Shown here: positions 2,146 through 59,079 of the stretch, piece by piece
Position numbering within the stretch: the first letter of the stretch is position 1
Layout of the letters: each line of letters opens with the position of its first letter
Assembly: GCF_000186865.1 (NCBI RefSeq)
Contig: NW_008705575.1
Coordinates: 678,125 to 742,124, forward strand
Reading direction: 5' to 3'
Length of the DNA: 64,000 nucleotides
Source of the DNA: Aureococcus anophagefferens
Taxonomy: Eukaryota; Sar; Pelagophyceae; Pelagomonadales; Pelagomonadaceae
Translations under genes and position numbers: made by a program
Notes under the pieces: model-generated
The model's input: only the letters and a program-made list of their open reading frames with translations
Database searches by the model: none
Told to the model about the DNA's origin: nothing

Positions 2146-3635
2146 GCCGCGGCTGCACGGGCGCGGCCCAAGGTCGGCGTCGCTTACACGCGCAACGGCA
2201 TCGGCGCGAACCGGACGGCGGCGCACCTGCGGCGCGAGCTGCGCAACGTCGTGCTGAGCGCCTGGTCCGTGCGCCGGCGCGAGACGCTGCCCCTGGCGCT
2301 CTTCACGGACGTCGACGCCGCGGCCGTGCACGCCGCGACGCGCGCGCTCTTGGGTTCGACGGAGAAGCTCTTCGACGTCGTGCTGCCCGACGGCCTCGCG
2401 TCCTTCGAGCCGCGCGACGCGCGCGAGCGCGCGCTGCTCTTCGCCGACGGCGGCGCGGACGTCGTCGCCCGGCGGCGCGCGAAGCTCCGGTCGCGCCTCG
2501 GGCGCCTGCTGAACCTCGCGCGCAAGCCCTGGGACCTCACGCTCTTCGTCGACGACGACACGTTCTTCTGCGGCGGCGCGCGGCCCGCGCCGGGCAAGCG
2601 GACGCCCCTCTCGGCGCTCCTGCACCGCCTCGCGCGGTCCAAGGCCTACGACGTCCGCGCCGGCGTCGAGCGACGGGAGTGTTTTTTCGCGCGAATGTCG
2701 CCCGAAGACGCGAAACAATCCGACCTCGTCGCGCTTGGTAGGTCCGCGCCCACGTCTTCGCCCGCGGCGACGACGAGGCCGCGGCGCGCCACGCGGCGAA
2801 GGAGTGCGTCTGGCGCCGCGCGGAGCACGTCGACTTCTCGGCCGTGCTCGAGGCCGGCTGCGCCGAGGAGGCGCGCGCGGCGCCGAGCGCCTGCGGCGGC
2901 GCCCAGGGCGGCGCGCTCGCGCTCGGCGGCGGCGCGCGGTCGCGGGCCTTCGCCCGGGACTGGGCCGACGCGTACCTCGCGCACTGGGCTGTGTGGAAAT
3001 CAACCACTGGTTTGGGACGTGCCGACCAAACTTTGAAATTCCCTAGCTCTGTCAAATCGAAGTCGATTCGGCTGATTTTTGGACGGATCGATTGCTCTCG
3101 TCGAGTCTTCGAAGCACAGCGAAAGTGCTCGTGGCAAAGCATTCGAATACGCGCACATTGAAGTCGGGTTGAAGATTTGATTTCCACACAGGCACTGGGC
3201 CGCGAGGCGGCGCCGCTCGACGGCGCCGCGGAGCGCACGTTCGCCAGCGACCAGCGGCCGCTCCTGGACCTCATGGCGCGGCACTGCGGCGATCTGGGAG
3301 CGGGGGGAGCCTGGGCGAAGACGAAGCACCTGTGGACGCTGGGGCCCCTGCCGGAGACGATGAACGTGCGAAGCCTGGAAGGCCCCGCGTCGTGCGCGAG
3401 CCCGCTCTTCGGCCCGCTGCTCTTCATTCACCACAAGCGCTACGTCAACGGCGGCGGCGTGCGCGACGCGGCGGCGCGGCTCGACGGGCTCTGCGGCGCC
3501 GCGAGCCGGCCCGTCGACGACGGCGGCCGCTGCTGGCTCGGCCGGCGGCCGCGCGGCAACGCGTCCCGGGTGCGCTGCGGCTGGATGACGCCCAAGGGCG
3601 CCGCCGCGGGCGTCGAATTTTCCGATAAGTTTTAG
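2119..3635 (+). CDS. Secreted or Golgi glycosyltransferase-like protein
   Basis: Starts at the ATG of the fourth 44-bp repeat (2119), giving a signal peptide or anchor (MRAIVAALLAAAARARPKVG). The DLTLFVDDDTFF segment looks like the metal-binding DxD region of nucleotide-sugar transferases. Exon 1 ends at 2652. An 89-bp introner intron (2653-2741) is removed exactly, giving KAYD-VRAHVFARGDDE. Exon 2 runs from 2742 to about 2987-2990. A second introner intron reaches 3191, and exon 3 runs 3192-3635 (LDLMARHCGDL...KTKHLWTLGPL). At that junction the frame needs a donor at GC 2988 or GT 2991, not the usual target-duplication donor. The TAG stop overlaps the stop codon of the opposing gene. Specific sugar and acceptor are unknown. 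Confidence 0.6.
2661..2741 (+). mobile_element. Introner family IE-3, 81 bp, forming an 89-bp GT-AG intron
   Basis: Flanked by the duplication GTCCGCGC (2653-2660 and 2742-2749). The donor GT is the first dinucleotide of the upstream duplicate and the acceptor TTGGTAG is the element end. Splicing restores one target copy and the frame. The body (GAGCGACGGGAGTGTTTTTT and so on) matches the element at 40203-40283, also an 89-bp intron. Only a weak inverted relation is visible between the ends (AGCGAC and GTCGCGCT). Confidence 0.85.
2989..3191 (+). mobile_element. Introner family IE-2, 203 bp
   Basis: Termini CTGTGTGGAAATCAA and TTGATTTCCACACAG are perfect inverted repeats. The 8-bp duplication is GCACTGGG (2981-2988 and 3192-3199). 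The acceptor CACACAG is the element end. Unlike the other copies, a donor at the start of the upstream duplicate (2981) would shift the frame. A donor at 2988 (GC) or 2991 (GT) joins AHW or AHWA to ALGREAAPL. Confidence 0.8.
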
Positions 3636-15050: not shown

Positions 15051-15117
15051 CCTAAGCCCCCCTCTACCTCCTCTAGAACATCGCGTTCATGTCGTTCTCC
15101 ATGCCCGCCTCGGCGGC

Positions 15118-15290
15118 TCATTCCTTGCGCCAGGCAGGCTTCGCGTTCAAGAACGCCAGGCACCAGACCGCGAAGGTCGGCGCGGAAAGGAACGCGGCGG
15201 CGACGTCGCGAAGGCCAAGCACGACTCGCCCGCGCGCAAGCGCAGCATCTCGGGCTCGGGCGACGACGCGGCGTAAAGATTGTTAGGCTA
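15118..15290 (-). other. Short conserved ORF with a hydrophobic segment, copy 1
   Basis: Directly 3' of the Sel1 gene on the same strand, a frame encodes GLRDVAAAFLSAPTFAVW followed by CLAFLNAKPAWRKE and TGA (15118-15120). The same peptide, with longer acidic tail, occurs after the second Sel1 gene at 16423-16668. Codon positions are conserved between copies, which hints at coding selection or at a recent duplication. It could be the last exon of an alternative transcript or a remnant of another gene. No ATG is evident. Confidence 0.35.
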
Positions 15291-16334
15291 TACTTGCGCG
15301 TCGAGGCGCGCGAGCTCGTTTGTAGCTTTCTGGTAGCCCTTGGCAGCGGCGCGCTCGAACCAGTATCGGGCTTTGCCGAGGTCGACTTCCGTGCCTCCTC
15401 CGTCCCTGTAAGAAATGCCAAGGCAAGTCTCTCCAGAGGTTAGACCTTGATTCGCCGCGAGCACGAAGTACCGGAACGCCTCTTCAAATCTGTTCTCAGA
15501 ATGAAGTAAAATCCCTAAATTGTTTTGCGCGGTCGCGACGCCGCGATCTGCGGCCGCGCGATACAGCCGCTCCGCCTTCTTCTTGTCCAGCTTGACGCCA
15601 CTTCCAGTCATGTACAATGCCGCAAGGTGTGCCATCGCAGCCACGTCCCCGAGCTCCACGGCGCGCCGGTAAATCTTCGCGGCTTTCTTATCGGATTTCA
15701 CGAGGCCGAAGTCACCGCGGCAGTACGCATTTCCCAAAAACGAAACCGCTTCCGGCACCTCGTTCTCCACATGGCGACGAAGACGCGCGAGGTCTTCTGC
15801 ATCGGTTGTGCGCGGTAATCGACAGAGGGGACACGCGTTTCCGATCTTGTCCTCGCACGATTGGCAGACCTTTCGGCAGCAACAGACGCGAAGCACGCCC
15901 GGAGTATTCACTTCCCACTCCTCGAGGCAGATCGGGCACCGCGAGCCGTACCGCGCCGACGTCGGCTCGGGCTCCGGATTCGCCTCGCGCCGCACGCGGG
16001 CCGCCTCGTGTTCCGCCGCGATGCGCGCGCGGATTACGTCGGCGTCCGACCGAGGCGCGGGGCCGTAGACCGGGAGCGACGGCGGGGGCGTCGGCGCTTC
16101 CGCCCGCGCCGCCTCCGCCGCGCGCTCGTCCCGGATCTTCTTGCACGCCTTCCGGTGGCCTCGGTCGCGCCAATCGATGCGTTGACAATCCGTCGAACAG
16201 TAGGCCGTCGTGCCGCAACCGGCGCAAGGCCGGGCATCCTTCTTCCCGCAAATCGTGCATATGTTGAGCGCCAGCTTCGTACGGGTTTTTCGCGCCTCGT
16301 ACTCTCGCTTCTTCTTCATCAATTCCGGGTCCAT
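15288..16334 (-). CDS. MYND zinc finger, RING-like and Sel1-repeat protein, copy 1
   Basis: 348 residues. N-terminal MYND finger (CTICGKKDARPCAGCGT, YCSTDCQRIDW, HRKAC), a charged linker, then a RING-like cluster (RCPICLEEWEV, CCCRKVCQSC, ACPLCRLP), then about four Sel1 repeats (FLGNAYCRGDFG, AMAHLAALYMTG, AQNNLGILLHSEN, CLGISYRDGGG). MYND and Sel1 modules bind other proteins; the RING-like part may give E3 ligase activity, which is inference. I start at MDPELM because upstream sequence loses the frame relative to copy 2. It is one half of a direct tandem duplication with 16668-17756. Such MYND/Sel1 genes form large families in pelagophytes. Confidence 0.8.
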   Translation of the reverse strand: MDPELMKKKREYEARKTRTKLALNICTICGKKDARPCAGCGTTAYCSTDCQRIDWRDRGHRKACKKIRDERAAEAARAEAPTPPPSLPVYGPAPRSDADVIRARIAAEHEAARVRREANPEPEPTSARYGSRCPICLEEWEVNTPGVLRVCCCRKVCQSCEDKIGNACPLCRLPRTTDAEDLARLRRHVENEVPEAVSFLGNAYCRGDFGLVKSDKKAAKIYRRAVELGDVAAMAHLAALYMTGSGVKLDKKKAERLYRAAADRGVATAQNNLGILLHSENRFEEAFRYFVLAANQGLTSGETCLGISYRDGGGTEVDLGKARYWFERAAAKGYQKATNELARLDAQV

Positions 16335-16422
16335 GATCTCTGACCGCGCGCGTCCTCTTCGCTCTCTGCGACGTCTCCTCTAGCTCGATCGGCGCAAAAT
16401 CGCTCAAAATCTTACCTCAGGG

Positions 16423-16668
16423 CTAGCCCACCTCAAGAGGCGTCTCTAGATAGAGCATCGCGTTCATGTCGTTCTCCATGCCCGCCTCGGCGGCGTCGTC
16501 CTCCTTGTGCCAGGCGGGCTTCGCGTTCAAGAACGCCAGAATCCAGACCGCGAAGGTCGGCGCAGATAGGAACGCCGCGACGACGACGCCAAGGCCAAGC
16601 ACGACTCGCCCGCGCGCAAGCGCAGCATCTCGGGCTCGGGCGACGACGCGGCGTGAAGATCGTTAGGC
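16423..16668 (-). other. Short conserved ORF with a hydrophobic segment, copy 2
   Basis: Frame read on the minus strand: RVVLGLGVVVAAFLSAPTF, then AVWILAFLNAKPAWHKEDD, ending GMENDMNAMLYLETPLEVG and TAG at 16423-16425. The hydrophobic block is long enough for one or two membrane helices. Counterpart of 15118-15290, which stops earlier after KPAWRKE. No start codon seen; possibly a terminal exon. Confidence 0.35.
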
Positions 16669-17756
16669 TATACTCGCGCGTCGAGGCGCGCGAGGTTCCT
16701 TGTCGCTGACTCGTGGCCCTTGGCAGCGGCGCGCTCGAACCAGTATCGGGCTTTGCCGAGGTCGACTTCCGTGCCTTTTCCGTCCATGAAACAGCAGCCA
16801 AGGTTATTCTCTCCAGGGTTAAAGCCTTGATCAGCCGAGAGCGCGTAGTACCGGAACGCCTCTTCAAATTTTTCCTCAGACTCAAGCAGACTCCCTAAAC
16901 AAACCTGCCCGACCGCGTCGCCCCGATCTGCGGCCATGCGATACAGCCTCTCCGCCTTCTTCTTGTCCAGCTTGACGCCCAACCCCTTCTCGTACAATAT
17001 CCCAAGGCAATTCATCGCGTCCACGTTCCCGAGCTCCACGGCGCGCCGGTAAATCTTCGCGGCTTTCTTATCAGATTTCACGAGGCCGAAGTCACCGCGG
17101 CAGTACGCATTTCCCAAAAACGTAATCGCTTCCGGCACCTCGTTCTCCACATGGCGACGAAGACGCGCGAGATCTTCCGCATCGTCTTCTGGGCACGGTA
17201 TGCGACAGAGGGGACACGCGCCGGCGCCGATCTTGTTATCGCACGATCGGCAGACCTTTCGGCAGCAACAGACGCGAAGCACGCCCGGAACATTCACGTC
17301 CCACTCCTCGAGACAGATCGGGCAACGCGGGCCGTACCGCGCAGACAGCGGCTCCCGCTCCGGGTTCGCCTCGCGCCGCGCCCGCGCCGCCTCGTGCTCC
17401 GCCGCGATGCGCGCGCGGACCTCGTCGGCGTGCGACCGCGGCGCGGGGCCGTAGACGACCTCCTCCGGCGGCGACGGCGGCGCCTCGGCCCGCGCCGCCT
17501 CCGCCGCCCGCTCCGCACGGATCTTTTTGCACGCCTTCCGGTGGCCGCGGTCGCGCCAGTCGATGCGTTGGCAGTCCGTCGAACAGTAGGTCGTCGTGCC
17601 GCACCCTTTGCAGGGCCGGGCATCCTTCTTCCCGCAAATCGTGCATATGTTGAGCGCCAGCTTCGTACGGGTTTTTCGCGCCTCGTACTCTCGCTTCTTC
17701 TTGATCAATTCCGGGTCCATGATCTCTGACCGCGCGTCCTCTTCGCTTGAGCTCAT
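16668..17756 (-). CDS. MYND zinc finger, RING-like and Sel1-repeat protein, copy 2
   Basis: Paralogue of 15288-16334. MYND finger (CTICGKKDARPCKGCGT, YCSTDCQRIDW), RING-like cluster (RCPICLEEWDV, CCCRKVCRSC, ACPLCRIP) and about four Sel1 repeats (FLGNAYCRGDFG, AMNCLGILYEKG, GQVCLGSLLESEE, NLGCCFMDGKG). I start at MSSSEEDARSEIMDPEL (17756), which adds 12 residues relative to copy 1; the frame is open further to 17816. The solvent-exposed positions of the Sel1 helices differ between the copies much more than the MYND finger, suggesting different binding partners. Confidence 0.8.
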   Translation of the reverse strand: MSSSEEDARSEIMDPELIKKKREYEARKTRTKLALNICTICGKKDARPCKGCGTTTYCSTDCQRIDWRDRGHRKACKKIRAERAAEAARAEAPPSPPEEVVYGPAPRSHADEVRARIAAEHEAARARREANPEREPLSARYGPRCPICLEEWDVNVPGVLRVCCCRKVCRSCDNKIGAGACPLCRIPCPEDDAEDLARLRRHVENEVPEAITFLGNAYCRGDFGLVKSDKKAAKIYRRAVELGNVDAMNCLGILYEKGLGVKLDKKKAERLYRMAADRGDAVGQVCLGSLLESEEKFEEAFRYYALSADQGFNPGENNLGCCFMDGKGTEVDLGKARYWFERAAAKGHESATRNLARLDARV

Positions 17757-19641: not shown

Positions 19642-20433
19642 ATGAGCGCGGGCGAGAAGCGAAAACGGGACGCGGCGCCCGTCGTCACCGTGAAGCGCCG
19701 CGGCAAGGCGTGCTCGTCGCGGTTCTTCGGGGTTCGTTGGCATGATCGAGATGGCAAGTGGCGAGCTATGTACACCGACGAGAAAGGCAAGCTGATCCAC
19801 ATCGCGTACTTCGACGACGAGGAGGCGGCGGCCCGCGCCTACAACGCCAAGATCGCCGATCTCGGCCTGAATCGGAGGACGAACTTGGAGTTATTGGGGG
19901 TGCTCGTCGAGAAGCCGGCCAGTTCGTCCGAGTTCCACGGCGTCAACTGGCACATACAAAGGGAAAAGTGGCAGGTCCGAGTGTACCGCTCCAAAAGGTG
20001 CGGCCTCGACGGCGGAGATCAGGACCTCGGCCGCTACGATGACGAGCGTTCCGCGGCGCTCGCGGCCGACGCCTTCCGCCGCGTCGCGATGCCGGGCCAC
20101 GAGCCCCACAAAATCAATTTTCCCACGCTCCCGGAGCTCACGACGCAACGCCTCAAGACGCCGACCGAAGTCATCCTCACCCTCGACTTCAACGGGACGC
20201 GCCGGACGATCCGCGGCCGTTTCACCGAGGTCAAATACGACCCGTCGGTGCAGAACCGCTCCGCGTGGTCGTACCGCGTGGAGTTCGAGGGTCACGAGGA
20301 GGAAGCCGCGGCCCTTGGACTCGAGACGCGGCCCTGGCCCAGAGTCTGGGACACGCTCGTCGGCGACGACTCGAAGTTCGTGAGCTGCACCTTGGCGCCC
20401 GACGAGAAGAAGAAGAAGCGCGCGCGCGCGTAA
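19642..20433 (+). CDS. AP2-like domain transcription factor candidate
   Basis: 263 residues with a basic N-terminus (MSAGEKRKRDAAPVV, a likely nuclear signal). The first AP2-like unit (SSRFFGVRWHDRDGKWRAM, IAYFDDEEAAARAYNAKIA) follows the three-strand plus helix pattern. A second unit follows (SSEFHGVNWHIQREKWQV, DLGRYDDERSAALAADAF). The C-terminal region (ILTLDFNGTRRTIRGRFTE) looks like a small beta domain, and the end is KKKKRARA. AP2 domains bind GC-rich DNA. No intron. It shares both units with the partial gene at 1-922, so the window holds two members of one family about 19 kb apart on opposite strands. Confidence 0.75.
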   Translation: MSAGEKRKRDAAPVVTVKRRGKACSSRFFGVRWHDRDGKWRAMYTDEKGKLIHIAYFDDEEAAARAYNAKIADLGLNRRTNLELLGVLVEKPASSSEFHGVNWHIQREKWQVRVYRSKRCGLDGGDQDLGRYDDERSAALAADAFRRVAMPGHEPHKINFPTLPELTTQRLKTPTEVILTLDFNGTRRTIRGRFTEVKYDPSVQNRSAWSYRVEFEGHEEEAAALGLETRPWPRVWDTLVGDDSKFVSCTLAPDEKKKKRARA

Positions 20434-20578: not shown

Positions 20579-22403
20579 TTAGGCCGGGCACCCGTGCAGG
20601 GCCGCGTTGTGCTCGTGGACGGGGGTGCAGCCGCGGAAGAGGAGCTGGCCGTAGTTGCCCTGGTGCGCGGCGATCATGGCCAGGGAGCCGTCGTACTTGA
20701 CGAGGCGCAGCGCGGGCGCGTCGACCTTCCAGGGCGACCAGGTCGCGCGGCTGCCCATGACGCCCGGCGCGCCGTCGCAGCGCGCGCGCCCCACGCAGCA
20801 CATGTCGTGCGGCGCGCCCGCGGGCACCTCCGTGACGTTGTCGTAGTCTCCCACGTTGCGGATGCGCCGGAGGTCGTCGCGGCTCCAGCGCGGGAGCCAG
20901 AGCTGGTTCGCCTTGACGGCGAGCGCGGGCAGGTCCACGGGGTGCGCGAGGGGCTGCATGCGGTGCGGCGACACGTAGTGGCCCTCGTCGACGACGGCGA
21001 TGACGCGCCGCGCGTCGCGGACGTGGAGCACCTTGGCAGGATAATGGTGATTCAACGTCGCCTCAACGTGAGTGTTCCGCGCGCGCGCGTTCCAAAAAAG
21101 CATCCACGCTTCGAGGACGCTCCGAGGGATGATCGCTCGTCCAAAAATCAGCCGAAACGAGTGGAAAGCGGTCGAGATAGGGAGCCTTTGAGGTTGGGGA
21201 TTTCGCACCTGGTCCGCCTCGCTGTAGTAGACGTAGTGGAAGGGCGCCCAGGCCTTGGCGCTCTTGAGCTTCTCGCGGACGCGCGCGACGGTCAGCGCGC
21301 CGAGGAGCGACCTGCGTCCGGCGGACGGGTTCGCCGCGCGCCGCTCGGCGAGAACGACTCGCGCCGGCGCGCGCGGCTTGAAGAAGCGGCCGCGCTTCTG
21401 GCTGTCGAGGTGGCAGTCGCTCAGGAGCACGTCGAAGAAGGGCAGGCCGCTCGACGTCCGCGCGAAGGCCGCGTCCGCCGCGGAGCACGTCGACAGCACG
21501 ACCTGCGCGGACCCGCTCGACCCGGTTCGTCCCGCGGGGGGTACGCGGCGCGCCGCGCGTGCGGCGTCAGCGCCGCGTGGACGCTCCAGAACGTCGCGTT
21601 GAGGACTGCGCGGGGGGTCGATCTTACGGTCAGTCGAACGTCGAGAGCCGCGCCGCGCCCGCGCAGTGGCGGCGCATGGCCGGCGCGGACGAGCCCGTGT
21701 TGCAGGAGGCGGATTTCGCGCCGCCTGGGCAGGAAAAGAGTGCGAAATGTCCAACTTTGGAGGCTCCTATCTCGGTCGATTTCCACTCGTTTCGGCTCAT
21801 TTTTGGACGAGCGATCATCTCTCGGAGCGCTCTCGACGCGTGGACGCTTTCTCCGGCACGCGCGCGCGCGGAACACTCACGTTGAAGCAAACTTGAATCA
21901 CTCTTTTCCTGCCCTGGGCGCCGCAGTCCGGCGACGTCGCGAAGAAGGGGAAGACGGCGACGGTCGAGAGGCGGTGCGGGCTCGCCGTGCGCGCCCGGGC
22001 GCTGCGCCGGCGGAGCCGCTCCGCGCGCGCGCCGAGGTGGTCCAGGAGCTCCGCGTCGAGCGTCTCCTTGGCCTCGCCGCGCGCGTCGCGGAGGCCGATG
22101 CGCCGCTCGAGCCAGGAGAGGTGCTCGACGCCGCAGTCGTAGAGGTCCACGGACTGGCGCGGCGTCGCGAGCTCCCGCGGGATCCAGCCGCCCGTCTCCA
22201 TGTTCGTGTTCTCGGCGATCTTTTTGTCGATGCGGTGGGCCAGCACCGTGTCGCGGTGGGCGAGCCAGGCGGCGCCGTAGGCCTCGCCGCTCGGGTCGAC
22301 GCAGTCGTACCAGCGCTTCAGCTGGTGCGACTGGAGCGCGTCCTGCTGCTCGTGCCTCGGCGCCGCCGCGACGAGCGCGAGGCAGCCCCAGGCCGCGCGC
22401 ATC
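20579..22403 (-). CDS. Secreted glycosyltransferase-like protein interrupted by two introners
   Basis: Exon 1 (22403-21925) starts MRAAWGCLALVAAAP (signal peptide) and contains YDCVDPSGEAYGAAWLAHRD. An exact 200-bp introner intron (21725-21924) joins SPDC to GAKSASCNTGSS. Between about 21654 and 21502 at least one more intron is needed; a GC donor after RRHCAG and the acceptor CGCGCAG before 21502 keep the frame (VVLSTCSAADAAF). Then LPFFDVLLSDCHLD and HYVYYSEADQ, a motif reminiscent of glycosyltransferases. A degenerate introner intron (21032-21208) is followed by VLHVRDARRVIAVVDEGHYV and the Cys-rich end HDMCCVGRARC. Function is a weak inference; exon structure in the middle is unresolved. 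Confidence 0.5.
21032..21208 (-). mobile_element. Degenerate introner IE-1, 177 bp, now a GT-AG intron
   Basis: The body matches the other IE-1 copies (AATCAGCCGAAACGAGTGGA on the plus strand). The donor-side terminus has lost the CAGGGCAGCAAAAG end, so the intron begins GTGCGAAAT directly after GACCAG. The acceptor is CTGCCAAG. Splicing joins SEADQ to VLHVRDARR. Only GTGC remains of any flanking duplication. The length is a multiple of three and the frame is open through all 59 codons. Confidence 0.8.
21725..21916 (-). mobile_element. Introner IE-1, 192 bp, 200-bp GC-AG intron
   Basis: Termini contain perfect 16-bp inverted repeats (GGGCAGGAAAAGAGTG). Flanking duplication on the coding strand is GCGGCGCC/GCGGCGCG, one mismatch. 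The donor is the GC that opens the upstream duplicate and the acceptor is CTGCCCAG. Splicing gives DCGAKSASC in frame. Body orientation is opposite to transcription. Confidence 0.85.
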
Positions 22404-29320: not shown

Positions 29321-30528
29321 ATGGTGCTGCTCGAGAGCGAGAAGAAGGTGCGGCGGCGCTGCTGGTGCGGCAGCAAGATCCAGACGGCGACGCTCCCCGA
29401 CGGCAACACGACGACGGACTTCCAGAACTGGCGCGTGTCCTTCGGCGCGGCGAAGCCCAAGCGGAAGCGCACGAAGGTCGTCATGGGCCTGACGAAGGAG
29501 GCCATCGAGGCGGACCGCACGGGCGGCTACCTCCACGAGCGGCTCCTGGAGGTCGTCGCGCCGCAGAATTTCTTCGGGGCCGACTACTACTTCATCGAGT
29601 ACCGCATGCCCGAGGCGCCCTTCACGGTCCGCGTCGCCATCGACCGCGTCGACCAGGTCGTCCGCGCGTACAAGGAGTTTGCGACGATCCCGACGAAGAT
29701 CCAGCGGCGGCTCATCCTCAAGGTCATCCCGCGGGACCCCGACCCGGACACGCCCGTCTTCGACCACCGGCCGGCGAAGACGGTGAAGACTCAGCTCAAG
29801 ACGCGCGCGGCGATGACGCGCTACCTCGTCGACCTCTACACGCGCGACGAGTTCTCGCTCAAGCAGCTCGGCGAGTGCATGACGCACAAGATGCCCGACC
29901 TGCGGGGCGTCGTCCACGACCAGGTCCCGGCCCACGAGAAGGAGGAGCACGACTACCTCATCGCGGCCAACAGGGCAGCAAAAGAGAGCGAAATTCCCAA
30001 CTTCAAAGGCTCATATCTCGGCCGTTTTCCACTCGTTTCGGCTGATTTTTGGACGAGCGATCATCTCTCGGAACGGTCTCGAAGCGTGGATGGTTTTTCT
30101 GGAACGCGCGCGCGCGGAACACTCACGTTGAAGCGACGTTGAATCACCCTTGTCCTGCCCAGGCGGCCAAGGACAAGAACAAGCGGCTCACGCTCGAGCA
30201 GCGCTACATGAGCGACGAGATCGACCTCCTCGCCTACGGCGACCTGAGGGACCCCGAGCGCAAGGAGAAGCGGCTCCACGACATGGCCGTCTACCCGCTG
30301 CCGGAGCGCATGTACACGTGCGTCGTCTGCGCGAAGCCCGAGTCCGCCGTGATCAAGTGCATGGAGTGCAACAACCGCACGTGCCGCGACTGCATGTACG
30401 CCAAGTTCATCAACTGCCCGGACGACCGCGCCTTCGTCCTCCTCCACCACATCTACTGCCTCAAGCTCGGCGAGCCCATCCTCCACCAGTCCAAGCACAA
30501 GCGCGCGCCGAAGAAGGCCGAGCACTAG
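29321..30528 (+). CDS. Protein with a C-terminal zinc-binding Cys cluster, split by an introner
   Basis: Exon 1 29321-29962, exon 2 30163-30528; the introner intron is removed exactly so that DYLI joins AAKDKNKRLTLEQRY. The N-terminus has a basic patch with CWCGSK; the middle is helical and charged (VDQVVRAYKEFATIPTKIQ). The C-terminal cluster is MYTCVVCAKPE, CMECNNRTCRDCMY and a later C/H (CPDD...LLHHIYC), consistent with a zinc-binding domain of B-box or LIM type. The end is Lys-rich. I do not recognise the family. Convergent with the gene at 30625-31586, with a perfect palindrome between them. Confidence 0.6.
29971..30162 (+). mobile_element. Introner IE-1, 192 bp, 200-bp GC-AG intron
   Basis: Begins CAGGGCAGCAAAAG and ends CTTGTCCTGCCCAG. 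Exact 8-bp duplication GCGGCCAA (29963-29970 and 30163-30170). The donor GC is the first dinucleotide of the upstream duplicate; the acceptor is the element end. Splicing restores ATC GCG GCC AAG in frame. Confidence 0.9.
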
Positions 30529-32522: not shown

Positions 32523-34440
32523 CTAGCGGCGCTTCCGGCAGTAGCACGTCGCGAGCTCGAGCTTCTTGACGAGGAGGCCCGCGGCGGAGCAGTAGGCCTT
32601 GCACGCCTTGCGCGCCGTGCGGCCCGTGACCGTCTCGTCGGAGGCGAAGGTCTCGCCGTCGATGGTGCACAGCTGGGGCGCGACGTAGAAGGGCTCGTCG
32701 CCGGCGGCGGCGTGGCCGACCGTCGGGCCGAGCGCGCACTGGCCCTGCGCGGCGTTGGCGACCATGGCGACGGCGAGCCCGCCGAGCGTCGTCGCGGCGG
32801 ACCAAAGGCCGACGGCGGAGAGGAGCAGGCCCGTCATGTCGCCGCCGCCGTCGTCGTCGTCCTCGTCTTCTTCGTGGTACCAGCAGCCCTCGCCGTTGTT
32901 CTCGCAGTTCGAGATGTAATTTTCGCACGAGTACCCGTTGTCCCAATGACAGCGAGAATCGGACACGCACGCGTCGTAGTCGTACTGGTACATCGCATCG
33001 CACTTCGGCTCGCAGCCGTAGTAGCTCGCGGCGTTGTGGCCGTACCAGCCGGCCGTGCACTCGTAATTCCAATCGCAGGTCTCGCCCGTGTCCCAGCCGC
33101 AAGTCTCCCCACAGTGCTGCCACGCTTGGTAGTAAAGGCACGAGTCGTCACTCGCGCACGAGTCGTAGTCGCTATGCTTCGCCTCACACTTCATCTCGCA
33201 GGAATCCCCGTTCCACGCACAGTGATCGCTGCACTCCCATTGGCCCTTCGTCCAACACACATCCCGGCATTCGGACCAGGCGGAGGCCCATTGGCACGCG
33301 CCGTCCGCGGCGCACTCGTCTTCGCCGCTCAACACGCGGCAGCCCGTCTCGCAGACGCCGTCCTCGTAGTCCCAGGAGCAGTAGTCATCCCTACACTGCC
33401 ATTCCTCGAATTGGGAGCACGCCGTTTGGCAGCTGTGCCAGGAGTCGATCCACTGGCACAGCGAGCCGTCCGCGTCGCACTCGTCTTCGCTCAAGGTGCC
33501 ACATCCCGCCTCGCAGACGCCGTCCTCGTAGCTCCAGGAGCAGTAGTCATCCCTGCACTCCCATTCCTCCTCGAATAGGGAGCACGCCGTTTGGCAGCTG
33601 TCCCAGGAGTCGATGAACTCGCACATGGGCTCCGCGTCGCACGCGTCTTCGCTCAAGCTGCTGCAGCTCGTCTCGCAGACGCCGTCCTCGTAGGACCACG
33701 AGCAGTAGCTGCCGTCGCACGCCCAGTCCTCCGTGTATTCGGAGCACGCGTTTTCGCAGTTGTCCCATTTGTCGACCCACTCGCACGCATCGTCCGCGTC
33801 GCACCTCCCCTGGAACGCCCCGTGCTTCGCTTCGCAGCTTTCCGGTTCCTCGTAGTCGTAGCCGTCCGGCACGGTCGCGCAGCAGGCGTAGGAGCAGGAA
33901 GACATCGTGGGATAGGCCGGCACGGGATAGTAGCCCTCGACGCACGTCGCGGGCTCGTCCCAGTCCATCGACGCGCAGCAGTCGTTCCCGGAGCTCGTAC
34001 CTACCCGCGCGCGACGACGACATTTTGCGGGGCCTCGAAGTCGCCACGGGACGCAGGTGTATACATATGTCGGAGAAGCAGTCGCGGTGGTCGTCGTCGA
34101 CGTCGTAGCTCCCGTCTTCGAACCAGCACCCGTCGTCGTCGCTGTACTCGCAGCTCGTCTCGCAGACGCCGTCGTCGTAGTCCCAGGAACACTGGTCATG
34201 GCAATTCTCCTCCTCGCGCCCCTCACAAGTCTCCTTACACTCATGCCAGTCTTGCACCCACACGCACCCGTCGTCCTCGCCTGTGTGGAAATCAACCACT
34301 TGTTTGGGAAGTCCCGACCAAACTTACGCCCACATTGAAGTCGGGTTGAAGATTTGATTTCTACACGGGTGCTCGCCGCACTCGTCCTCGTCGCCGTACT
34401 TGGCCTCGCAGCCCGCCTCGCAGACGCCGTCCTCGTAGCG
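32523..34440 (-). CDS. Large Cys-rich repeat protein with C-terminal hydrophobic segment
   Basis: Repeats of about 45 residues with the pattern WxCxDxYCSWxYEDGVCExxC, CxADGxCQWIDSWxSCQTAC. At least six units span 34440-33000, followed by acidic GCWYHEEDEDDDD, a hydrophobic segment (MTGLLLSAVGLWSAATTL) and a final Cys-rich part (LELATCYCRKRR). Exons: an incomplete first exon down to 34377, then 34280-34065, then 34000-32523. Intron 34281-34376 is an introner (96 bp, GC-AG) and 34001-34064 is GTATAC...GGTAG. Both junctions restore the repeat pattern (DECGEDDGCVW; SDICTSSGNDCC). The 5' end is not resolved; the frame fades near 34440-34480. Likely extracellular or cell-surface. Confidence 0.65.
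34281..34368 (-). mobile_element. Short introner IE-2, 88 bp, 96-bp GC-AG intron
   Basis: Plus-strand termini CTGTGTGGAAATCAACC and GGTTGAAGATTTGATTTCTA. Flanks GTCCTCGC and GTGCTCGC match at 7 of 8 positions. On the coding strand the donor is GC of GCGAGCAC and the acceptor is CACACAG. It shares both ends with the 203-bp copy at 2989 but lacks about 115 bp of the body, so it looks like an internal deletion derivative. Confidence 0.85.
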
Positions 34441-39663: not shown

Positions 39664-40763
39664 ATGGCAGCGCACTTGCTTCGGCTCCACGTGCTCGGAG
39701 CACTATTCTCCGATGCCGCGGAGCTGCCCTGCCTCGACGCCGCGACGACGGTGCGCTGCGACCTCGCCATGCAACGACCGCGCACGACCGCCGTCCACGT
39801 CGCCTTCCGCGGCGACTCGTTCCGCGGGTTGAGCTACGGCGCCCCCGGGAAGCTCTCGCACGCGTGCGGCGCCGACGCCGAGGCCATCCAGGCGGCGACG
39901 GCGAGAGCGCAGCTTCTCTTTCTCGTCGAACCCTTCGAAGATCGCGGCGTCCGCGTCGACGTCTCGCTCCACACCTACGCCTGCGGCGCGAACTCGCGCC
40001 TCGCGGACGCCCTCGTCGCGGCCTACCGCGCCGGCGACGCGAACCGCACCGTGTCGCTGCGCCTCCTCGAGCGGCGCGGCTCGAACCAGGGCACGCTCCT
40101 CCGGTCCGCGGCCGAGGCCGCCGCCGGCGGGTCCTACGCGGCCGCGCTGCTGTGGCGCTTCGACGTCGTGCCCAGCGCCGAGCTGCGCGACTGGGCGCCG
40201 AGCAGCGTCGAGCGACAGGAGTGTTTTTTCGCGTGAATTTCGCCTGAAGATGTGAAGAAATCCGACCCCGTCGCACTTGGTAGGCGCCGGGGCTCCAACC
40301 GTTCGTCGCCTACGCCGGAGATTGGGCGCTCCAGTTTCCGGGTTGGTTCGCCGCGTGCGCGGCGGCCATCTTCCGCTCGGACTGCGTCGTGGCGTCGACG
40401 TCCAAGTTCCACGGCATGCTCGCGTGCACCTGCCGGTCCAACGTCCAGGCCGCGCTCGACGCCGCGGGCGGCGACGTTTCGCTCCAGAACGCGGGCTGCG
40501 CGAACCCGACGGGCTGCCGCGCGCCGCCCGGCGAGCTCCCGCGGTTCGCGGTCTACCGCGACGACTTCACGCACGTCGGCGCCGCGACGTGCCGCTTCCT
40601 CGAGGGCCTCGGCGGGCCGCCGTGCCTGGACCCCGTCGCCGCGAAGCAGCGCGCGTGCGCGCTGGCCGCCGCCCCGTGGCCCCGGGCCTGCGCGCCCAAG
40701 GACGACGAGGCCGGGCCGCGGGACGCCATGGTCTGCGCGCGGGGCTGGCGCTGCCGACGGTAA
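39664..40763 (+). CDS. Secreted protein of unknown function with an introner
   Basis: Exon 1 39664-40194 and exon 2 40284-40763 join exactly as ELRDW-APGLQPFVAYAGDW. The N-terminus (MAAHLLRLHVLGALFSDA) is a possible signal peptide. Motifs that look structured are TTAVHVAFRGDSFRGLSYG, YAAALLWRFDVVPSAEL and CVVASTSKFHGMLACTC; the last recalls the STSRFHG region of polysaccharide pyruvyltransferase-like enzymes, a weak hint only. The C-terminal third is Cys-rich. Stop codon is one base away from the stop of the convergent EF-hand gene. Confidence 0.55.
40203..40283 (+). mobile_element. Introner family IE-3, 81 bp, 89-bp GC-AG intron
   Basis: Second copy of the element at 2661-2741, with the shared segments GTCGAGCGAC, GGAGTGTTTTTTCGCG and CTTGGTAG. 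Flanks GCGCCGAG and GCGCCGGG match at 7 of 8 positions. The intron runs 40195-40283, with donor GC in the upstream duplicate and acceptor GGTAG in the element. Intron length equals that of the other copy. Confidence 0.85.
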
Positions 40764-40764
40764 C

Positions 40765-43181
40765 TTAGGACCCCGCCTTCGCGTCGGCCTTGTCCGCGGC
40801 CTTCTTCTTGTGGCGCGGCGACGACCGCGCGTGGAAGGGCGTGTACATGGAGCCCGCGTTCGACCGCGAGAACATGCGCCGGGGCGTCACGCGCGCGGTC
40901 CGCGGCGTCGACGAGGACCGCGGCGTCGGGTTCACGGAGGACCGCGCGGAGCCCAGGGCCGCCTTGAGCGCCGCGGCGCTGGCCTCGCCGATGGAGAGCG
41001 TCGGCAGGGACTGGGAGCTTTGCGGGAACGCGCGCGGCGACGCGTCGGGCGACGCGCCCGACGACCGCGGGGACCCGGCGCCGCTCGCGCCGGCCGCGCC
41101 GCTCCGGGGCGTCGCCGACGGGGACGCGCCGCGGCTCCGGGGGCTCCGGGGGCTCGTCAGCGGCGACCGGTTCTTGGCGACGCCGCCCTTGGGCAGCTGC
41201 GCGCGCGACGCGGAGAAGCGGCGCCGCGACGCGGACGGCGAGCCCGGGGGCTGGCCGTGGAGGCCCCGCGCGCCGCCGCCCTTGGGGCTGCCGCGCGCGC
41301 CGTCGAGCGACGCGCCGGGGAGCGCGCGCGGCAGGCCGCCGGGCACCTTCGGGCTGCCCGGCGGCTTGGGCTTCGGGCTGCCCGGCGCGTCCGGCGGCGT
41401 CGCGGGGCGGCTCCCCGGCCGGATGTCGTCGTGGGACCCGGAGAGCGACCGGCGCCGGCCGCTCGGCTGCGGAGACGCGGCGCCCGGCGCGAGCGTGTCG
41501 CCCGAGTTGGCGCCGCGGTACTTGAAGGGCCCGCCGCCGCGCGCGGAGTTGAGCCGCGAGCTGTCGAGGCGGCCGCTGTCGAGGAGCTCGCGGGGCGTCG
41601 GGTCGTCGCGCGTCGGGAGGTTCGAGCTCCGCTTGTCGCCGGGCTTGACGTCCTTGCGCGGCGTGAGGTGGAGCCGGAGCGACTTGCCGCTCCGCGAGCT
41701 CCGCGGCGTGCGCCGGCCCGAGAGCCCGCCCGACGGCCGCCGCCGCGCGGACTGGGGCCGCACGCCCTGGAGCGCGGGCACGGCCGCGCCGCCCGACGCC
41801 TTCTGCATCGACTCCTTGCGCTTGAGCTCGTAGGCCTCGGACATCTTGTTGCCCCGGAGGCGCAGCAGGTTCTCGAAGGTGATGAGGCACGCCTCGACGC
41901 CCGTCTCGCCGACGCCCTTGCCCATGAGGTCGAAGAAGAGGCGGAACTCCTCCTTGGTGATCGTGTCGTCCTCGTCGATGTTGTCGAGGAGCGGCATGAT
42001 CTCCGCGGAGACCTCGTCGTCCTGGATGAGCTCCGCGAGCTCCTCCTTCTCGATGGTGCCGTTGCCGTCGAAGTCCATGCCCTCGAAGACGGCGTCCATG
42101 CGCTCGTACAGGCCGATGGACGCGGCCTCCGTGTAGCGGTCCTCAACGATGCCCGACATGTCGAGCGACGACCGCCGCTTCGCCTCCGCGCCGCCGCCCC
42201 CCTCGAGCATGGACCCCGTCGGCAGCGCCGACCGCTGGGCCGCCTCGGCCTCGAGCAGGGCGCGCTCCATGGCCTCGATCTCCGCGTTCTCCCGGAAGGA
42301 GATCAGGTTCTCGAAGTTCGTCAGCGTCGACTCCACGAGGTCGTCGCCGCCAAAGTGCCAGAGGTTCGCGAGGAACTGGACCCACTCCTGCATGGTGATG
42401 GAGCCGTCCTGGTCGATGCAGTCCACGACCTCGAAGAGGCGCCGCACGGAGCTCGAGCCCTCGCGGCCCTCCAATAGTTCGAAGTCGTAGAGCGTGATCT
42501 CGCCGTCCGCGTCCGTGTCGACGCCTGGGCGGGAAACGAAATATTCAACACGACTTCAATGTGAGCTTATTCGACAGTTTCGACGCGAGGCTTTCTGCCG
42601 TGCTTCGAGAACTCGACGAGAGCGATCGATTCGTCCACAAAGTAGCCGAAACGACTTCGATTTGACCGAGCTGGAGAGGTTTGAAGTTTGGCTGGACAGG
42701 GCCATGCCACTGGTTGATTTCGGCACAGGTCGACGCCGGCGAAGACCTCCTCGACCCAGACCTCCATCTCCGTCGCCGCGATGTGGGCGCAGAAGCTCGT
42801 GTACTTCTCGCGCTCGCTCTCGTCGTCGTCCATGAGCTTGGCCATGTACGCCTCCTCGGCCGCGAGGCGCGCCTTCGACTTCGTCATGGCCTTCCAGCTC
42901 CTCCCGTCGGTCCCCAGGGCCGCGGCCTCGGCCTCCTTCTTCGCCGCGTGCTCCTTCTTCAGGTCGCGGATACTCTGGCGGCTGCCCGCGCCGGGCTTCT
43001 TGTTCTTGCCCGCCTCGCGGCGCTGCTGCGCCGCGGCCTCGCGCTCCTTGCGCACGCGGTCCCGCTCGGCGATCTGCGCCTCCCGCGCCTTGGCCAGGAG
43101 CTCGGCCTGCGACGGGCCCGAGGGCTTCTTCTCCTCCTTCTTGCTCGCCTTCGACGCCTTGCCATAGCGCGGCGGCGGCAT
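40765..43181 (-). CDS. EF-hand protein with a long disordered Ser/Pro-rich tail
   Basis: Exon 1 43181-42737, exon 2 42524-40765. The 212-bp introner intron is removed exactly inside the first EF loop, restoring FAGVDTDADGEITLYDFEL. Further EF hands: CIDQDGSITMQEW, DFDGNGTIEKEE and NIDEDDTITKEE, with a helix (FENLISFRENAE; FENLLRLRGNKM) after each pair. The N-terminus is a charged helix (KAREAQIAERDRVRKERE). Residues after about 390 are disordered with many SPRS/TPRS sites, typical of proline-directed phosphorylation. A calcium sensor on a scaffold is likely. It could be cytoskeletal or ciliary; no motif decides. Confidence 0.75.
42525..42728 (-). mobile_element. Introner IE-2 variant, 204 bp, 212-bp GC-AG intron
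   Basis: Exact 8-bp duplication GTCGACGC (42517-42524 and 42729-42736). One terminus is IE-2-like (CCACTGGTTGATTTCGGCACAG on the plus strand). The other starts CTGGGCGGGAAACGAAATAT, closer to IE-1 ends, and the inner body carries AGCCGAAACGACTTCGATTT, as in the IE-2 copy at 2989. Coding-strand donor is GC of GCGTCGAC and acceptor CCGCCCAG. Splicing falls inside an EF-hand loop and restores it. Confidence 0.88.
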
Positions 43182-49345: not shown

Positions 49346-52022
49346 GCGAGAGCGACGACGAACCCGCGGACAAGGACCACGCCCTGCGGCTCGCGGAGAA
49401 GCGCGCCGTGCGCGCCGCCGTCGAGGACCTCGAGGTGCGGCGGGACCGCGAGACGACCGAAAAAATCCGCGTGTGCCCCTTCGCGAAGGAGGACCTCGAG
49501 CTCGCGTCCGGCTTCGGGAAGATCGCGTCGCGCGCCATCGCGACGGCCATCGACCACGACGAGGACCGCAAGGCGCGCGAGGAGATGAAGGAGGCGAACA
49601 AGGAGGAGGAGAAGAAGGCGAACTTCCAGTCGCACGTCGAGTCGATCTTCGACTTCTTCGAGCGGCGCCTCGACTTTGGGGGGACCCAGGTGTCGCCCGG
49701 CGGCATGGAGGCGGCGCACACGGCCTTCAAGCTGAAGCAGCGCGAGGGCGAGCTCAGCGTGAAGATGAACGCGATGATCCGCGGGTATTTGACGCGGCGC
49801 AAGGTCGTCAAGGAGCTCAAGAAGAACGGCATGATCGTCCGGTCCATCACGGGCGCGGCGCGCGAGAAGACGGACACCATGCGCGCCAAGCTGAAGGACC
49901 AGGAGAAGATCCGGAAGCGCGCGTTCGCGACGCAGCAGCTCCTCCGGAGGCAGAAGGCGCGGGACCAGGCCAGGGCCGCGGAGGCGTCCGACGACGCCCT
50001 GCGCGCCGAGGCGGACCGCGCCGTCGACCGCGCCCGCGCGACGGCCGCCGCGGCCGCGGCCGGAGCGCTGCTCGAGCGGCGCGCGACGGAGTTCAAGCTG
50101 GAGCGCGACGCGGCCATCGCCAAAATCATGGCCGGCGGCCGCGAGGCCGCCGAGGCCGCGGCCCTCGCCCAGGACGCCGAGGACGCGCGCGAGGCCATCC
50201 GCGAGGCCGTGAACGTCGCCGCCTACGAGAAGGAGGAGAAGTTCGCCAAGAATTTTTCCGCGAAGAAGGTCCAGGGCATGGCGCGGCGCCGGTCGTCGCT
50301 CATCATGGTCGAAAAGCAGCGCGAGGAGGCCGTCGCCGCCGCGGCGCGGGCCACGAGCCGGCGGTCCCTCTTCCGGAGCGCGATCCGCAAGGTCTGGTGC
50401 GCTCTGGCGTTCCGCGACAACGTGAAAATCCACAAGGACCGCGAACAGGCGGCGGACGTCGCGGCCTTCGCGGCCGCGGAGCTCGAGGAATTGCAGGGCG
50501 CGGAGAGCGTGAGCCCGACGCCGCGGTCGACGCCCATGGGCGGCCGGCGGTCCATCGCGGCCGTGCACGAGGTCCGCGTGAAGAAGCACGGGAGGCACGC
50601 GCGGCCGCCCGGCCTCCTCTCCGGCGAGAACATCTACGAGTACGGCTGGCGCCGGTGCCAGGCCCGCGTGCGCAGCGGGCAGGCGCGGCGGCGCGTGCGC
50701 CTGCTCTGGGCCGAGTTCTACGCGAGGATCGGCGCCGCGGACGACGGCTCCGTGGGGTCGACGTCCTTCAAGGACACGTACGCGCGGCTCCAGCGCAGCG
50801 ACCCGCCGGCGCCGACGCCCTGGGTGCGGGGGTTTACGAAGTTCCAGGCCGTGGCGCGGGGCGCGCTGCTCCGCGTCGTGCGGCGGCGCTACGGCGCGCA
50901 CGAGACGCCCTTCGGCGTGGAACTGGAGAAGTTCCTCCCGCCGGAGCACGGGCCCCTGGGCGCGACGCCCGCGCGGTCGCCGCGGGGCACGCCGCGCCAG
51001 CCGTCGCGCACGCTCGCCGAGCACCGGCGGGCCCTCGCGGAGCAGCGCCGCGCCGCGCAGCCGCCGCCGCGGACCGGCGTGGGCAACATGGGCACGTTCG
51101 CGCCGCCGCGGACGGGCAAGGTCTCCAAGGGCGCCCTCATCGCCGCGCACCGCGGGGCCTACAACGCGGACGTGAGCCCGAGCCGCTTCGGCGGGCCCCT
51201 GGACATCCTCGACTGCCGCGACGACCAGGGCAGCAAAAGAGAGCGAAATTCCCAACTTCAAAGGCTCCGATCTCGGCCGTTTTCCACTCGTTTCGGCTGA
51301 TTTTTGGACGAGCGATCGTCTCTCGGAACGGTCTCGAAGCGTGGGTGCTTGTTTTGGAACGCGCGCGCGCGAAACACTCACGTTGAAGCGACGTTGAATC
51401 ACTCTTGTGCTGCCCAGGCGACGACGGCGACGTCGACTTCCGGTCGCACCGCGTCGCGAGCACGGCGCCGCGGGCCGTGTCCGGCGCCTACGGCGGCGGC
51501 GGCCGCCAGGGGCGCATCGAGGCGCAGCTGCTGGCGGAGCTGCGCGACGACCTGGCGGAGAACGACGTGCCGACGCTCGGCCGCGTCGACGAGGCGCTCT
51601 ACACCGCGACGCCTTTGGCATCGCGCGCGACGACGCCCTACAGCGCGGCGAAGCTCCTCACGTCCCAGCTGCTGTCGACGACGGACGAGGGCGACGACGA
51701 GTCGAACGACGGGCGGCGCGTCTACGTGCAGCACGCGTACCACGTGCCCATCGACGCGTCCGTGTCCGGCTCCGTGCCTTCGTACTACCCCGCGCGGCCG
51801 AGCGGCGACCCCATCTACGTCCACTCGCCCCACAAGGACCGCTGGCTCAGCGCCCACGCGGGCGTCGTGAAGAAGTCGTTCAAGAACGACAAGCTCTACC
51901 GCGAGGCGCGGCGCAACGTGTCCCGCCTCGTGCGCCAGAACCGGCGCCTCGAGTACACGTCGGGCCTCGAGCGGCCCGCGACGACGCGGACGACGAGCCT
52001 GCCGAGCCCGCGAAGGGCCTAG
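48656..52022 (+). CDS. GAF-domain protein with IQ-like motifs
   Basis: Exons 48656-48877, 48937-51217 and 51418-52022. The 59-bp first intron joins VMLN to VCTMAKEHLNSDI inside the GAF domain. The second is an exact introner removal joining LDC-RDDGDVDFRS. The GAF domain runs ADIVTIFLY-type strand (DIVTIFLYAPKKRQLWSRW), RVPANAGITGQAF, LNVKDAYETAYFNQKVD and RSVLCLPLF...GVVQFINK, as in cyclic-nucleotide phosphodiesterases and cyclases. No catalytic domain follows. Instead there is a long charged helix, IQ-like segments (AMIRGYLTRRKVVKEL; FQAVARGALLRVVRRRY) that may bind calmodulin, and a disordered tail. A cNMP- or redox-regulated scaffold is a reasonable inference. Confidence 0.75.
51226..51417 (+). 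mobile_element. Introner IE-1, 192 bp, 200-bp GC-AG intron
   Basis: Begins CAGGGCAGCAAAAG and ends TTGTGCTGCCCAG. Exact 8-bp duplication GCGACGAC (51218-51225 and 51418-51425). Same length and orientation relative to transcription as the copy at 29971. Donor GC lies in the duplicate, acceptor in the element. Splicing restores TGC CGC GAC GAC GGC in frame. Confidence 0.9.
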
Positions 52023-55933: not shown

Positions 55934-55969
55934 GATGCGAGAATAACTTTCGCACAGGCACCAGCTCGA

Positions 55970-56150
55970 GGCCCGACGTGCCGCTTCGTTGACCCGAGGT
56001 TGAAGCCACCCAAGTCTTTACGTCTGCTCTAGCTCGATCGCGAGCTGTGGCAATTAATTAGCGAGGCCCGACGTGCCGCTTCGTTGAGTGCTTCGAAGTG
56101 CTTCGTTGACCCGAAGTTGAAGCCATGTAAAAGCCTTACGTCTGCTCCTT
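55970..56150. repeat. Partial duplication of the SOF1 gene 3' end
   Basis: GAGGCCCGACGTGCCGCTTC GTTGA occurs at about 55970 and 56063. CTTCGTTGACCCGARGTTGA AGCCA and TTACGTCTGCTC follow in both. The right copy includes the SOF1 stop codon and last codons (EQT). The left copy carries the same last codons with no gene attached, so the 3' end of SOF1 was duplicated downstream. Confidence 0.75.
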
Positions 56151-57536: not shown

Positions 57537-57696
57537 CGCGTGTTGCGGCAGCCGCGCTCAGTGATGCTCTCTATCGTCGCCCACTTTTGCTTCGGCACTC
57601 AACCTTCAGCCATCGATGTTGCAGTACCGCGAGCGTACGGAGGAAGTGGCGGAAGCGAAGTCTACAGCGAAGGGGAAGGGAGCGTCCGGCGTCGGC

Positions 57697-59079
57697 CTAG
57701 GGCGCTTCGGACGCGCCGTCGCCGTCGCGCCCGTCGCACGCGCCGTCGCCGCCGGAGAGGACGGGGTCCAGGATGAGCGCGAGCTCCTCGTCGTTGACGT
57801 AGGGCGCGGCGTCGGAGTCGTCGGAGCAGTCCGAGGCGTCGTCGTCGAGGCCGTCGTAGCGCCGGACGCCCCGGTCGAGGTCCACGAGCCGCGTGCCCGC
57901 CCGCTCGCGGCCGTCGTCGTCGAGGTCCGCGGCGCACGAGCACGCGGGGAGCCAGCCGGGACCCGCGCCCGCGCCGCAGCAGAGCTCCTCGACCCAGGGC
58001 GGCGCGCTCCCGCTGTCCTCGAAGAGGGCCGGCCAGCCGCCCGCGAGCACGGGCGACAGCGCGATCTCGCGCACGGTCTGCGTCGCGACGGGCGTCCCGA
58101 ACGACAGCGGCCGTCGCGGCGGCGCGGACGGCGCGACCTCGCGGACGGCCGCGGGCGTCGCGGGCGTCGAGGACATGGCCGAGAGCGTGACCTCGCGGAC
58201 CGTCGACGGCGCGGGCGTGGAGGGCGACGCCGACGTCGCCGAGAGCGCGACCTCCCGGGAAGGCGCGGGCGCGCCGACGGACGAGCGCGGCGTTCCCGGG
58301 TCGCTCCGCGGGCTCGGCGCGCACTCGGATCGGACCTCCGCCTCGAGCAACGTGATGTCGAGCACGGCCTCGAGCACCGCGGACAGCGCGAGGCGCAGCG
58401 GCGACGGCGTCGCGCCGTCGGCGGGCGCGGCGGCCGCCGCCGGCGTCGTCGTCGCGCCTCCGGGCGTCGCGCCTCCCGGCGTCATGCCTCCCGGCGTCAT
58501 CCCCCCTCCCGGCGCCCAGACGTCCGAATGGCGGTTCGGCGTCGCGCGGCGCGACAGGTCGTCGAGCGTGTAGATGGCGTCGACCTCGAGCCTGGGCAGC
58601 AAAAGGGTGCGAAATTCCCAACTTCAAAGGCTCCTATCTCGGTCGTTTTCCGCTCGTTTCGGCTGATTTTTGGACGAGCGATCATCTCTCGGAGCGCTCT
58701 CGAAGCGTGGGTGCTGTTTTTGAAACGCGCGCGCGGAACACTCACGTTGAAGCTACGTTGAATCACCCTTTTGCTGCCCTGCCTCGAGCATGGACTGGCG
58801 CAGCTTCGTCGCGGAGCTCGGGAGCCTCGCGATGTCCTTCGTGATGGAGTCCTCGCGGTCGCTCGCGGGCGACGGGCCCCAGGACACGCGGCGGCGGCTC
58901 GCCTTCTTCGGCGGCGTGCGCCGCGGCGACAGCGGGCCCTTGGGCGACGGCTTGGGCGACGGCAGCGCCGCGCCCTTGGGCGGCGGCGCCGCGGCGCCCC
59001 GGGGATCGGGCGCGGCGACGTTCGGCGGCGCGTTCTCGTCGCCCCGGTGCATGAGGAGCGACGGGCTCGCGGGGATCAT
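57697..59079 (-). CDS. Low-complexity Ser/Pro/Thr-rich protein with an introner
   Basis: Exon 1 59079-58790, exon 2 58591-57697; the introner intron is removed exactly, joining KLRQSM to LEVDAIYTLDDLSRR. 394 residues. Exon 1 is Pro/Lys-rich with SRRRVSWGPSP, an RVxW-like site. Exon 2 has short tandem repeats (GGGMTPGGMTPGGATPGGAT) and variants of SREVALSAT, VREVTLSAM, VREVAPSAP, VREIALSP repeated four times. Acidic end with VNDEELALILDPVL. No known domain. Likely a disordered regulator, possibly of a phosphatase given the RVxF-like motif, but this is speculative. Confidence 0.6.
58592..58781 (-). mobile_element. Introner IE-1, 190 bp, 198-bp GC-AG intron
   Basis: Exact 8-bp duplication CCTCGAGC (58584-58591 and 58782-58789). 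Perfect 16-bp terminal inverted repeats GGGCAGCAAAAGGGTG. On the coding strand the intron opens GCTCGAGG then CAGGGCAG, and closes CTGCCCAG. Body orientation is opposite to transcription. It is the least degraded IE-1 copy in the window. Confidence 0.92.

Follow-up and report, generated by a model that had tools for sequence, protein, structure and literature searches.

The window analysed here is a 64,000-nucleotide stretch of the Aureococcus anophagefferens genome (contig NW_008705575.1, positions 678,125 to 742,124 of the forward strand) in which short repeated elements interrupt coding sequence. An earlier note on this DNA had named ten such elements in three families, IE-1, IE-2 and IE-3, and all ten are indeed present: five IE-1, three IE-2 and two IE-3 (Table 1). 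Both copies of an 8-bp target duplication flank nine of them. At these nine, read in the sense of the gene, the upstream duplicate begins with GT (2661) or GC (the other eight), and the element ends in CAG or TAG. The tenth, at 21032, is missing its donor-side end as well as most of the upstream duplicate; a GTGC is left there. Judged by these features and their counterparts across the genome, the elements are very probably introners, i.e., non-autonomous DNA transposons that make introns by way of an 8-bp target duplication.

Table 1. The ten elements of the window, with their target-site duplicates and predicted splice sites
Family	Element	Span	Strand	Target-site duplicate (identity)	Predicted splicing
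IE-3	2661-2741 (81 bp)	2653..2749	+	GTCCGCGC at 2653-2660 and 2742-2749 (8/8)	GT donor, TAG acceptor; intron 2653-2741
IE-2	2989-3191 (203 bp)	2981..3199	+	GCACTGGG at 2981-2988 and 3192-3199 (8/8)	GC donor, CAG acceptor
IE-1 (21032), donor-side end deleted		21024..21208	-	downstream duplicate GTGCTCCA at 21024-21031	intron 21032-21208
IE-1	21725-21916 (192 bp)	21717..21924	gene -	CGCGCCGC / GGCGCCGC (7/8)	GC donor, CAG acceptor
IE-1	29971-30162 (192 bp)	29963..30170	+	GCGGCCAA (8/8)	GC donor, CAG acceptor
IE-2, internally deleted	34281-34368 (88 bp)	34273..34376	gene -	GTCCTCGC / GTGCTCGC (7/8)	GC donor, CAG acceptor
IE-3	40203-40283 (81 bp)	40195..40291	+	GCGCCGAG / GCGCCGGG (7/8)	GC donor, TAG acceptor
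IE-2, diverged	42525-42728 (204 bp)	42517..42736	gene - (EF-hand protein)	GTCGACGC (8/8)	GC donor, CAG acceptor
IE-1	51226-51417 (192 bp)	51218..51425	+	GCGACGAC (8/8)	GC donor, CAG acceptor
IE-1, mirror form	58592-58781 (190 bp)	58584..58789	gene -	CCTCGAGC (8/8)	GC donor, CAG acceptor

IE-1 elements are about 192 bp long with ends C(A/T)GGGCAG, IE-2 elements are about 203 bp with typical ends CTGTGTGGAAATCAA, and IE-3 is a one-way family of 81 bp that starts C(A/G)GCGTCGAGCGA and ends CTTGGTAG. The element ends, C-G...(C/T)AG, lie a few letters further out than those quoted in the earlier note. Inverted repeats are clear in IE-1 and IE-2 and only weak in IE-3. The division into three families is less well supported. 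IE-3 aligns to IE-1 and IE-2 with a score of 17 (shuffled means 15-16), no match to either. IE-1 and IE-2, in contrast, have an approximately 55-bp core in common (alignment score 49, versus 17 for shuffled sequences, with a standard deviation of 2.3 and a maximum of 27 in 500 shuffles), and because of this core we regard them as sister families. As far as alignment tells, then, there are two sisters and a third family without visible relation to them. The diverged element at 42525 has one end like that of IE-1, as does a diverged IE-2 copy elsewhere (L027 2431-2628); the two are perhaps an intermediate subfamily.

Under the proposed mechanism, a short non-autonomous DNA transposon would insert into a coding exon and duplicate 8 bp of its target. 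The element end would supply the 3' splice site (CAG or TAG), and where the coding strand has GT or GC as the first two letters of the duplicated 8-mer, the upstream copy of this 8-mer would serve as the 5' splice site. Removal of the element together with one duplicate as an intron would then restore the message letter for letter. Splicing itself, the selective loss of unfit insertions, and mobilization in trans by a transposase would complete the scheme. The phenomenon is not new, the introner mechanism being already known in this same species. Huff et al. reportedly described it in Nature in 2016 for A. anophagefferens and Micromonas pusilla, with one splice site said to lie in the element and the other to come from the duplicate. 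The earlier note had invoked the mechanism published for Aureococcus and Micromonas and so had named the right system, the window being from Aureococcus itself. In a second-hand description, PMC7789003 has the introners of A. anophagefferens and Micromonas as short, with inverted repeats, constant-length direct repeats and canonical splicing motifs. The present elements agree with those of A. anophagefferens in species, short length, inverted repeats and constant-length direct repeats; in contrast to the canonical motifs given there, over half of the donors here are GC.

Reading frames were scored with a codon model whose four seed stretches were exonic (one from the A. anophagefferens protein P0001, the other three from genes that have protein relatives or an in-frame Pfam domain), and this model picked the correct frame in 32/32 seed windows. 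Exact splicing preserves the frame at eight of the ten window elements, the same number that had been claimed before: at seven by codon scoring with 150-bp flanks (with weak scores at 34281), and at 21725, where the frame is continuous with 90-bp flanks and unclear with 150-bp flanks. Splicing from the GT donor at 21032 continues in frame (...YYSEADQ-VLHVRDARRV...). The origin of this donor is uncertain, because GTGC opens the downstream duplicate GTGCTCCA and is present inside IE-1 relatives as well.

The earlier note had proposed searching the genome with the element patterns. Across 49.05 Mb in 86 contigs, this search returned many copies of the end patterns of all three families, with exact-pattern counts of 924 IE-1 right ends, 60 IE-3 right ends and 1,055 IE-2 ends (an element may be counted at each of its ends); the exact patterns exclude ends having A as the ninth following letter. 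Many near-identical copies are thus found genome-wide, as is characteristic of introners, and their position as introns was checked in samples. The window plus the preceding 200 kb (264 kb in all) was examined whole, and further copies were sampled from eight loci and 100 short loci elsewhere. Sixty of the short loci were drawn from lists of best-scoring matches, plus one pair of IE-2 ends, and 40 from the contig C1 part of the IE-1 right-end listing, twenty per IE-1 form (see below). Splice-letter statistics are from the first 100 places listed for each of IE-1 and IE-2, all on contigs C1 and C2, and from all 60 IE-3 ends; these ends and the sampled copies overlap.

An 8-bp target duplication is constant in all three families. 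With the IE-1 element fixed at 192 bp, the flanks agree at 8/8 positions in 31/40 copies, versus none of 1,560 mismatched pairs, and at 7/8 or better in 32/40, versus 0.4% of those pairs. With IE-3 fixed at 81 bp, 14/20 copies have 8/8 flanks and 18/20 have at least 7/8, versus 1.3% of 380 mismatched pairs; these fixed-boundary controls cover IE-1 and IE-3. A GT or GC donor from the duplicate together with an AG acceptor from the element is compatible with 258/260 listed ends, and the two misfits fit, by eye, after a one-letter shift. By dinucleotide count, the background frequency of GC plus GT is 0.175. For IE-1, 65/100 ends are CAG, followed by GC or GT in 65/65, and the other 35 are CTG, with AC or GC as the last two letters of the 8-mer in 34/35, which gives GT or GC when the opposite strand is read. 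Of the IE-2 ends, among which some elements appear twice, once for each end, 99/100 fit one strand or the other, including all 7 without AG, which fit the other strand. All 60 IE-3 right ends are followed by GY (GC 35, GT 25).

Strand and frame were assessed in 79 of 94 delimited copies, namely those whose splice letters fit one strand only; eight fit both strands and seven, which are truncated, diverged or shifted by one letter, fit neither. According to the codon model, the coding strand is the strand given by the splice letters in 79/79 copies (IE-1 32, IE-2 25, IE-3 22), and with the element and one duplicate taken out, the frame stays continuous in 78/79, the sole exception being 2989. 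Copies outside a spliceable arrangement are almost absent from the listed ends and the samples, so that these would be transposon-made introns that are nearly letter-perfect in a living genome.

Related proteins were compared at two sites. At the 2661 junction, the alignment of seven outgroup relatives (P0008-P0014) to ...KAYD-VRAHVFAR... is gap-free, the dash marking the exact-splice junction (P0015 was not aligned); measured against these relatives, predicted exact splicing of this IE-3 element restores the protein exactly. At the 29971 junction, P0016 (98% identical) and P0018-P0020, the four nearest relatives that lack element sequence, read YLI-A(A/S)KDKNKR gap-free, and P0022, P0024, P0028, P0030 and P0031 have no gap there either; P0029 begins at the junction, and P0032-P0035 were not aligned. 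Four kinds of evidence support the mechanism, namely splice letters, coding strand, frame continuity and related proteins at two sites.

The comparison at 2661 bears on the alternative that survives best, in which both splice sites lie inside the element, with a GT near its left end as donor, and the duplicate plus a few element letters are kept in the mRNA. Such an introner has been published: the Fig. 2F legend of PMC9860276 (Gozashti et al. 2022), a paper in which families without terminal inverted repeats are included, gives a 77-bp introner of Aureococcus sp. TARA_AOS_82_MAG_00129 (family 4) that has both splice sites in the element and adds 12 bp to the message. Compared by description only, IE-3 matches family 4 in genus, in its 8-bp duplication and in length (77-bp intron + 4 bp = 81 bp), and IE-3 indeed has a GT at element position 5, so that 81 - 4 gives the published intron length. 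However, an internal donor would not require IE-3 duplicates to begin with GY, as they do in 60/60, and the 4-residue insertion that it implies is lacking from the seven outgroup proteins at 2661. We therefore consider an internal donor unlikely. The sequences favor an IE-3 donor in the duplicate in this strain, with exact restoration, in contrast to the internal sites and added 12 bp of family 4. An earlier hint that IE-3 is little described is less well supported, since PMC9860276 has an Aureococcus introner of matching length, the likeness being one of length and description.

Spread through RNA reverse splicing and subsequent gene conversion, rather than by DNA transposition, would account for sampled copies lying almost only in coding exons in a spliceable arrangement. 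It does not predict the 8-bp duplication of all three families or the inverted repeats of IE-1 and IE-2; moreover, there is no AG proto-splice site upstream, the flank ending in AG in 4/79 copies, a count taken directly on the flanks and not dependent on the codon model. This route is quite improbable. That the elements are ordinary miniature inverted-repeat transposable elements (MITEs) that fell into genes by chance and stay in the mRNA or in pseudogenes, with coincidental splice letters, would suit their MITE anatomy (IE-1 and IE-2 inverted repeats, 8-bp duplications, many copies) and a same-species protein, P0007, that reads through an element, but is scarcely credible given the splice-pair, strand and frame counts above.

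Several observations weigh against introner origin by exact splicing. Of the 87 scored copies, 23 lie within the 264 kb that served to train the codon model; a previous version of the model had learned a frame shifted by one, and the strand, coding-score and frame figures from that version were discarded. At 2989, exact splicing shifts the frame by one, which a different donor, an indel, or a misassembled run of G would each explain. The read-through in P0007 is of the 2661 element, unspliced. Four more distant relatives (P0023, P0025-P0027) have two extra residues near the 29971 junction, and in A. anophagefferens models the donors differ from the predicted ones at 29971 (P0017, P0021) and 51226 (P0001-P0003). 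Lastly, the genome gave no match to the transposase families PF05699, PF18758, PF14372, PF10551 and PF12762, other families with 8-bp duplications not having been searched. PF10551 and PF12762 did match in control genomes, while PF05699, PF18758 and PF14372 matched in none, so that their absence says little. This limit applies to the comparison with hAT-type MITEs, with which the introners have the 8-bp target duplication in common, since two of these uninformative profiles, PF05699 and PF14372, are the ones bearing on it. The donor-side end of IE-1, CAGGG, resembles hAT ends; the ends of IE-2 and IE-3 depart from that pattern.

Where the introners insert seems not to be random. Flanks scored as non-coding (below 0.2) at only 2/87 copies, those at 2989 and 21725, compared with 25.5% of 4,000 random windows; the random windows were of 200 bp from the 264 kb, and those around copies within the 264 kb were of 300 bp. 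Uniform insertion followed by selection within genes would leave many unfit copies in non-coding DNA, and their scarcity in the samples points to insertion biased toward gene bodies. According to PMC9860276, 161 of 175 genomes show enrichment of introners in genes.

There are two mirror forms of IE-1, and each can be spliced in a single direction. Among 53 copies, 27 are sense, ending in CAG and starting with C(A 22, G 4, C 1)G, and 26 are antisense, with start CTG and, as the end, CTG (25) or CCG (1); no other column exceeds 0.74 of a full split. Cores of opposite form differ by as few as 2 of 168 letters. The acceptor-side letters partly define the form labels, and 40 copies were chosen by their right end; two observations are free of this: none of the 27 sense left ends has T at position 2, and 0/65 listed CAG-ended IE-1 fit the other strand alone, versus 31/93 listed AG-ended IE-2 ends. 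On a tree of IE-1 cores the forms are clustered, with 6 changes of form (4-6 in bootstrap trees; shuffled mean about 18), of which only 1 is forced by well-supported branches; an earlier 36-row tree had 2 changes, both forced.

Because IE-1 ends are unpaired at position 2, the acceptor A would lie outside the inverted-repeat stem, and since the mismatch runs in opposite directions in the two mirror forms, polarity appears to have flipped more than once. In predicted folds of 40 IE-1 copies, the acceptor A is unpaired with probability 0.907 as found and 0.017 with T at donor-side position 2. Two results weaken the idea that pairing would sequester the acceptor: the neighboring G is mostly paired either way (unpaired 0.321 as found, 0.047 with T), and IE-2, for which the folds used made-up flanks, carries a donor-side T at position 2 in 21/31 copies. 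Because IE-2 tolerates this T, we offer only tentatively the proposal that IE-1 is a one-way intron in which a mismatch between acceptor T and donor non-T keeps the acceptor A out of the stem, with polarity switched repeatedly, and we think it rather doubtful as a whole. Inversion of the core could possibly have produced the mirror forms; single changes from a symmetric CTG...CAG ancestor explain them equally well. No copy of that symmetric form is among the 53. Literature titles and abstract openings, a search whose reach excluded most subscription papers, held nothing on IE-1 mirror forms. These forms, and the GC donors that public gene models seem to miss, may be new details.

GC donors make up slightly more than half in all three families: 57/100 listed IE-1 ends, 35/60 IE-3 ends, and 18/34 listed IE-2 ends that fit that strand only. 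According to PMC3033335, 39.6% of A. anophagefferens introns are GC-AG, and their origin is called an enigma; GC-donor introners offer a source for them, a point possibly already made in Huff et al. 2016. Public models seem to miss these donors. P0017 (JL721_8614) and P0021 (SO694_00131069), both A. anophagefferens models, contain AANRAAKESEIPNFKGS(F/Y)LGRFPL, which is the translated duplicate plus the 29971 element; both thus carry this element, and P0016 is gap-free there at the protein level. The protein predicted from 48.9-51.2 kb has six protein matches, five named Aureococcus anophagefferens. One, P0001, matches window exons at 100% identity over two stretches (75 and 200 residues), and between them has a stretch at 87% where the public model uses other exon borders. 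On this evidence the window belongs to A. anophagefferens or to a very close strain. At 51226, models P0001-P0003 match the predicted acceptor, and all lack the residues preceding the GC donor; P0004 and P0005 are not resolved there. We read the other donors of the public models as the work of gene predictors that refuse GC donors, which can thereby insert transposon-encoded peptide into public protein models, as in the two at 29971.

Three of the predicted spliced proteins were searched with Pfam. In the product of the 42525 gene, the best EF-hand stretch covers residues 291-316, apart from the junction at about residue 148; the other two proteins gave nothing above the cut-off. Two candidates for longer or composite elements were rejected: a 1.4-kb repeat (L011 2589-3971) taken for a long IE-2 relative is repetitive coding-like sequence, and two IE-2 ends separated by about 730 bp (L088) belong to two separate, oppositely oriented IE-2 copies about 550 bp apart. 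One IE-1 copy (L057) has no direct duplicate, its downstream 8-mer being nearly the reverse complement of the upstream one.

Other repeats lie in the window. In or beside the gene of the 34281 element, positions 33288-34440 hold coding repeats that recur about every 162 bp and are rich in cysteine when translated. Two adjoining copies of about 1.3 kb, with roughly 90% identity, occupy 15074-17747, and 316-490 and 19696-19870 form an inverted duplicate of about 175 bp with roughly 80% identity. At the start of a glycosyltransferase-like gene, a 44-bp unit is repeated four times (1970-2145), each unit having a possible start codon and a stretch GTGAGTGC(C/T)TAG that resembles a donor followed by a stop.

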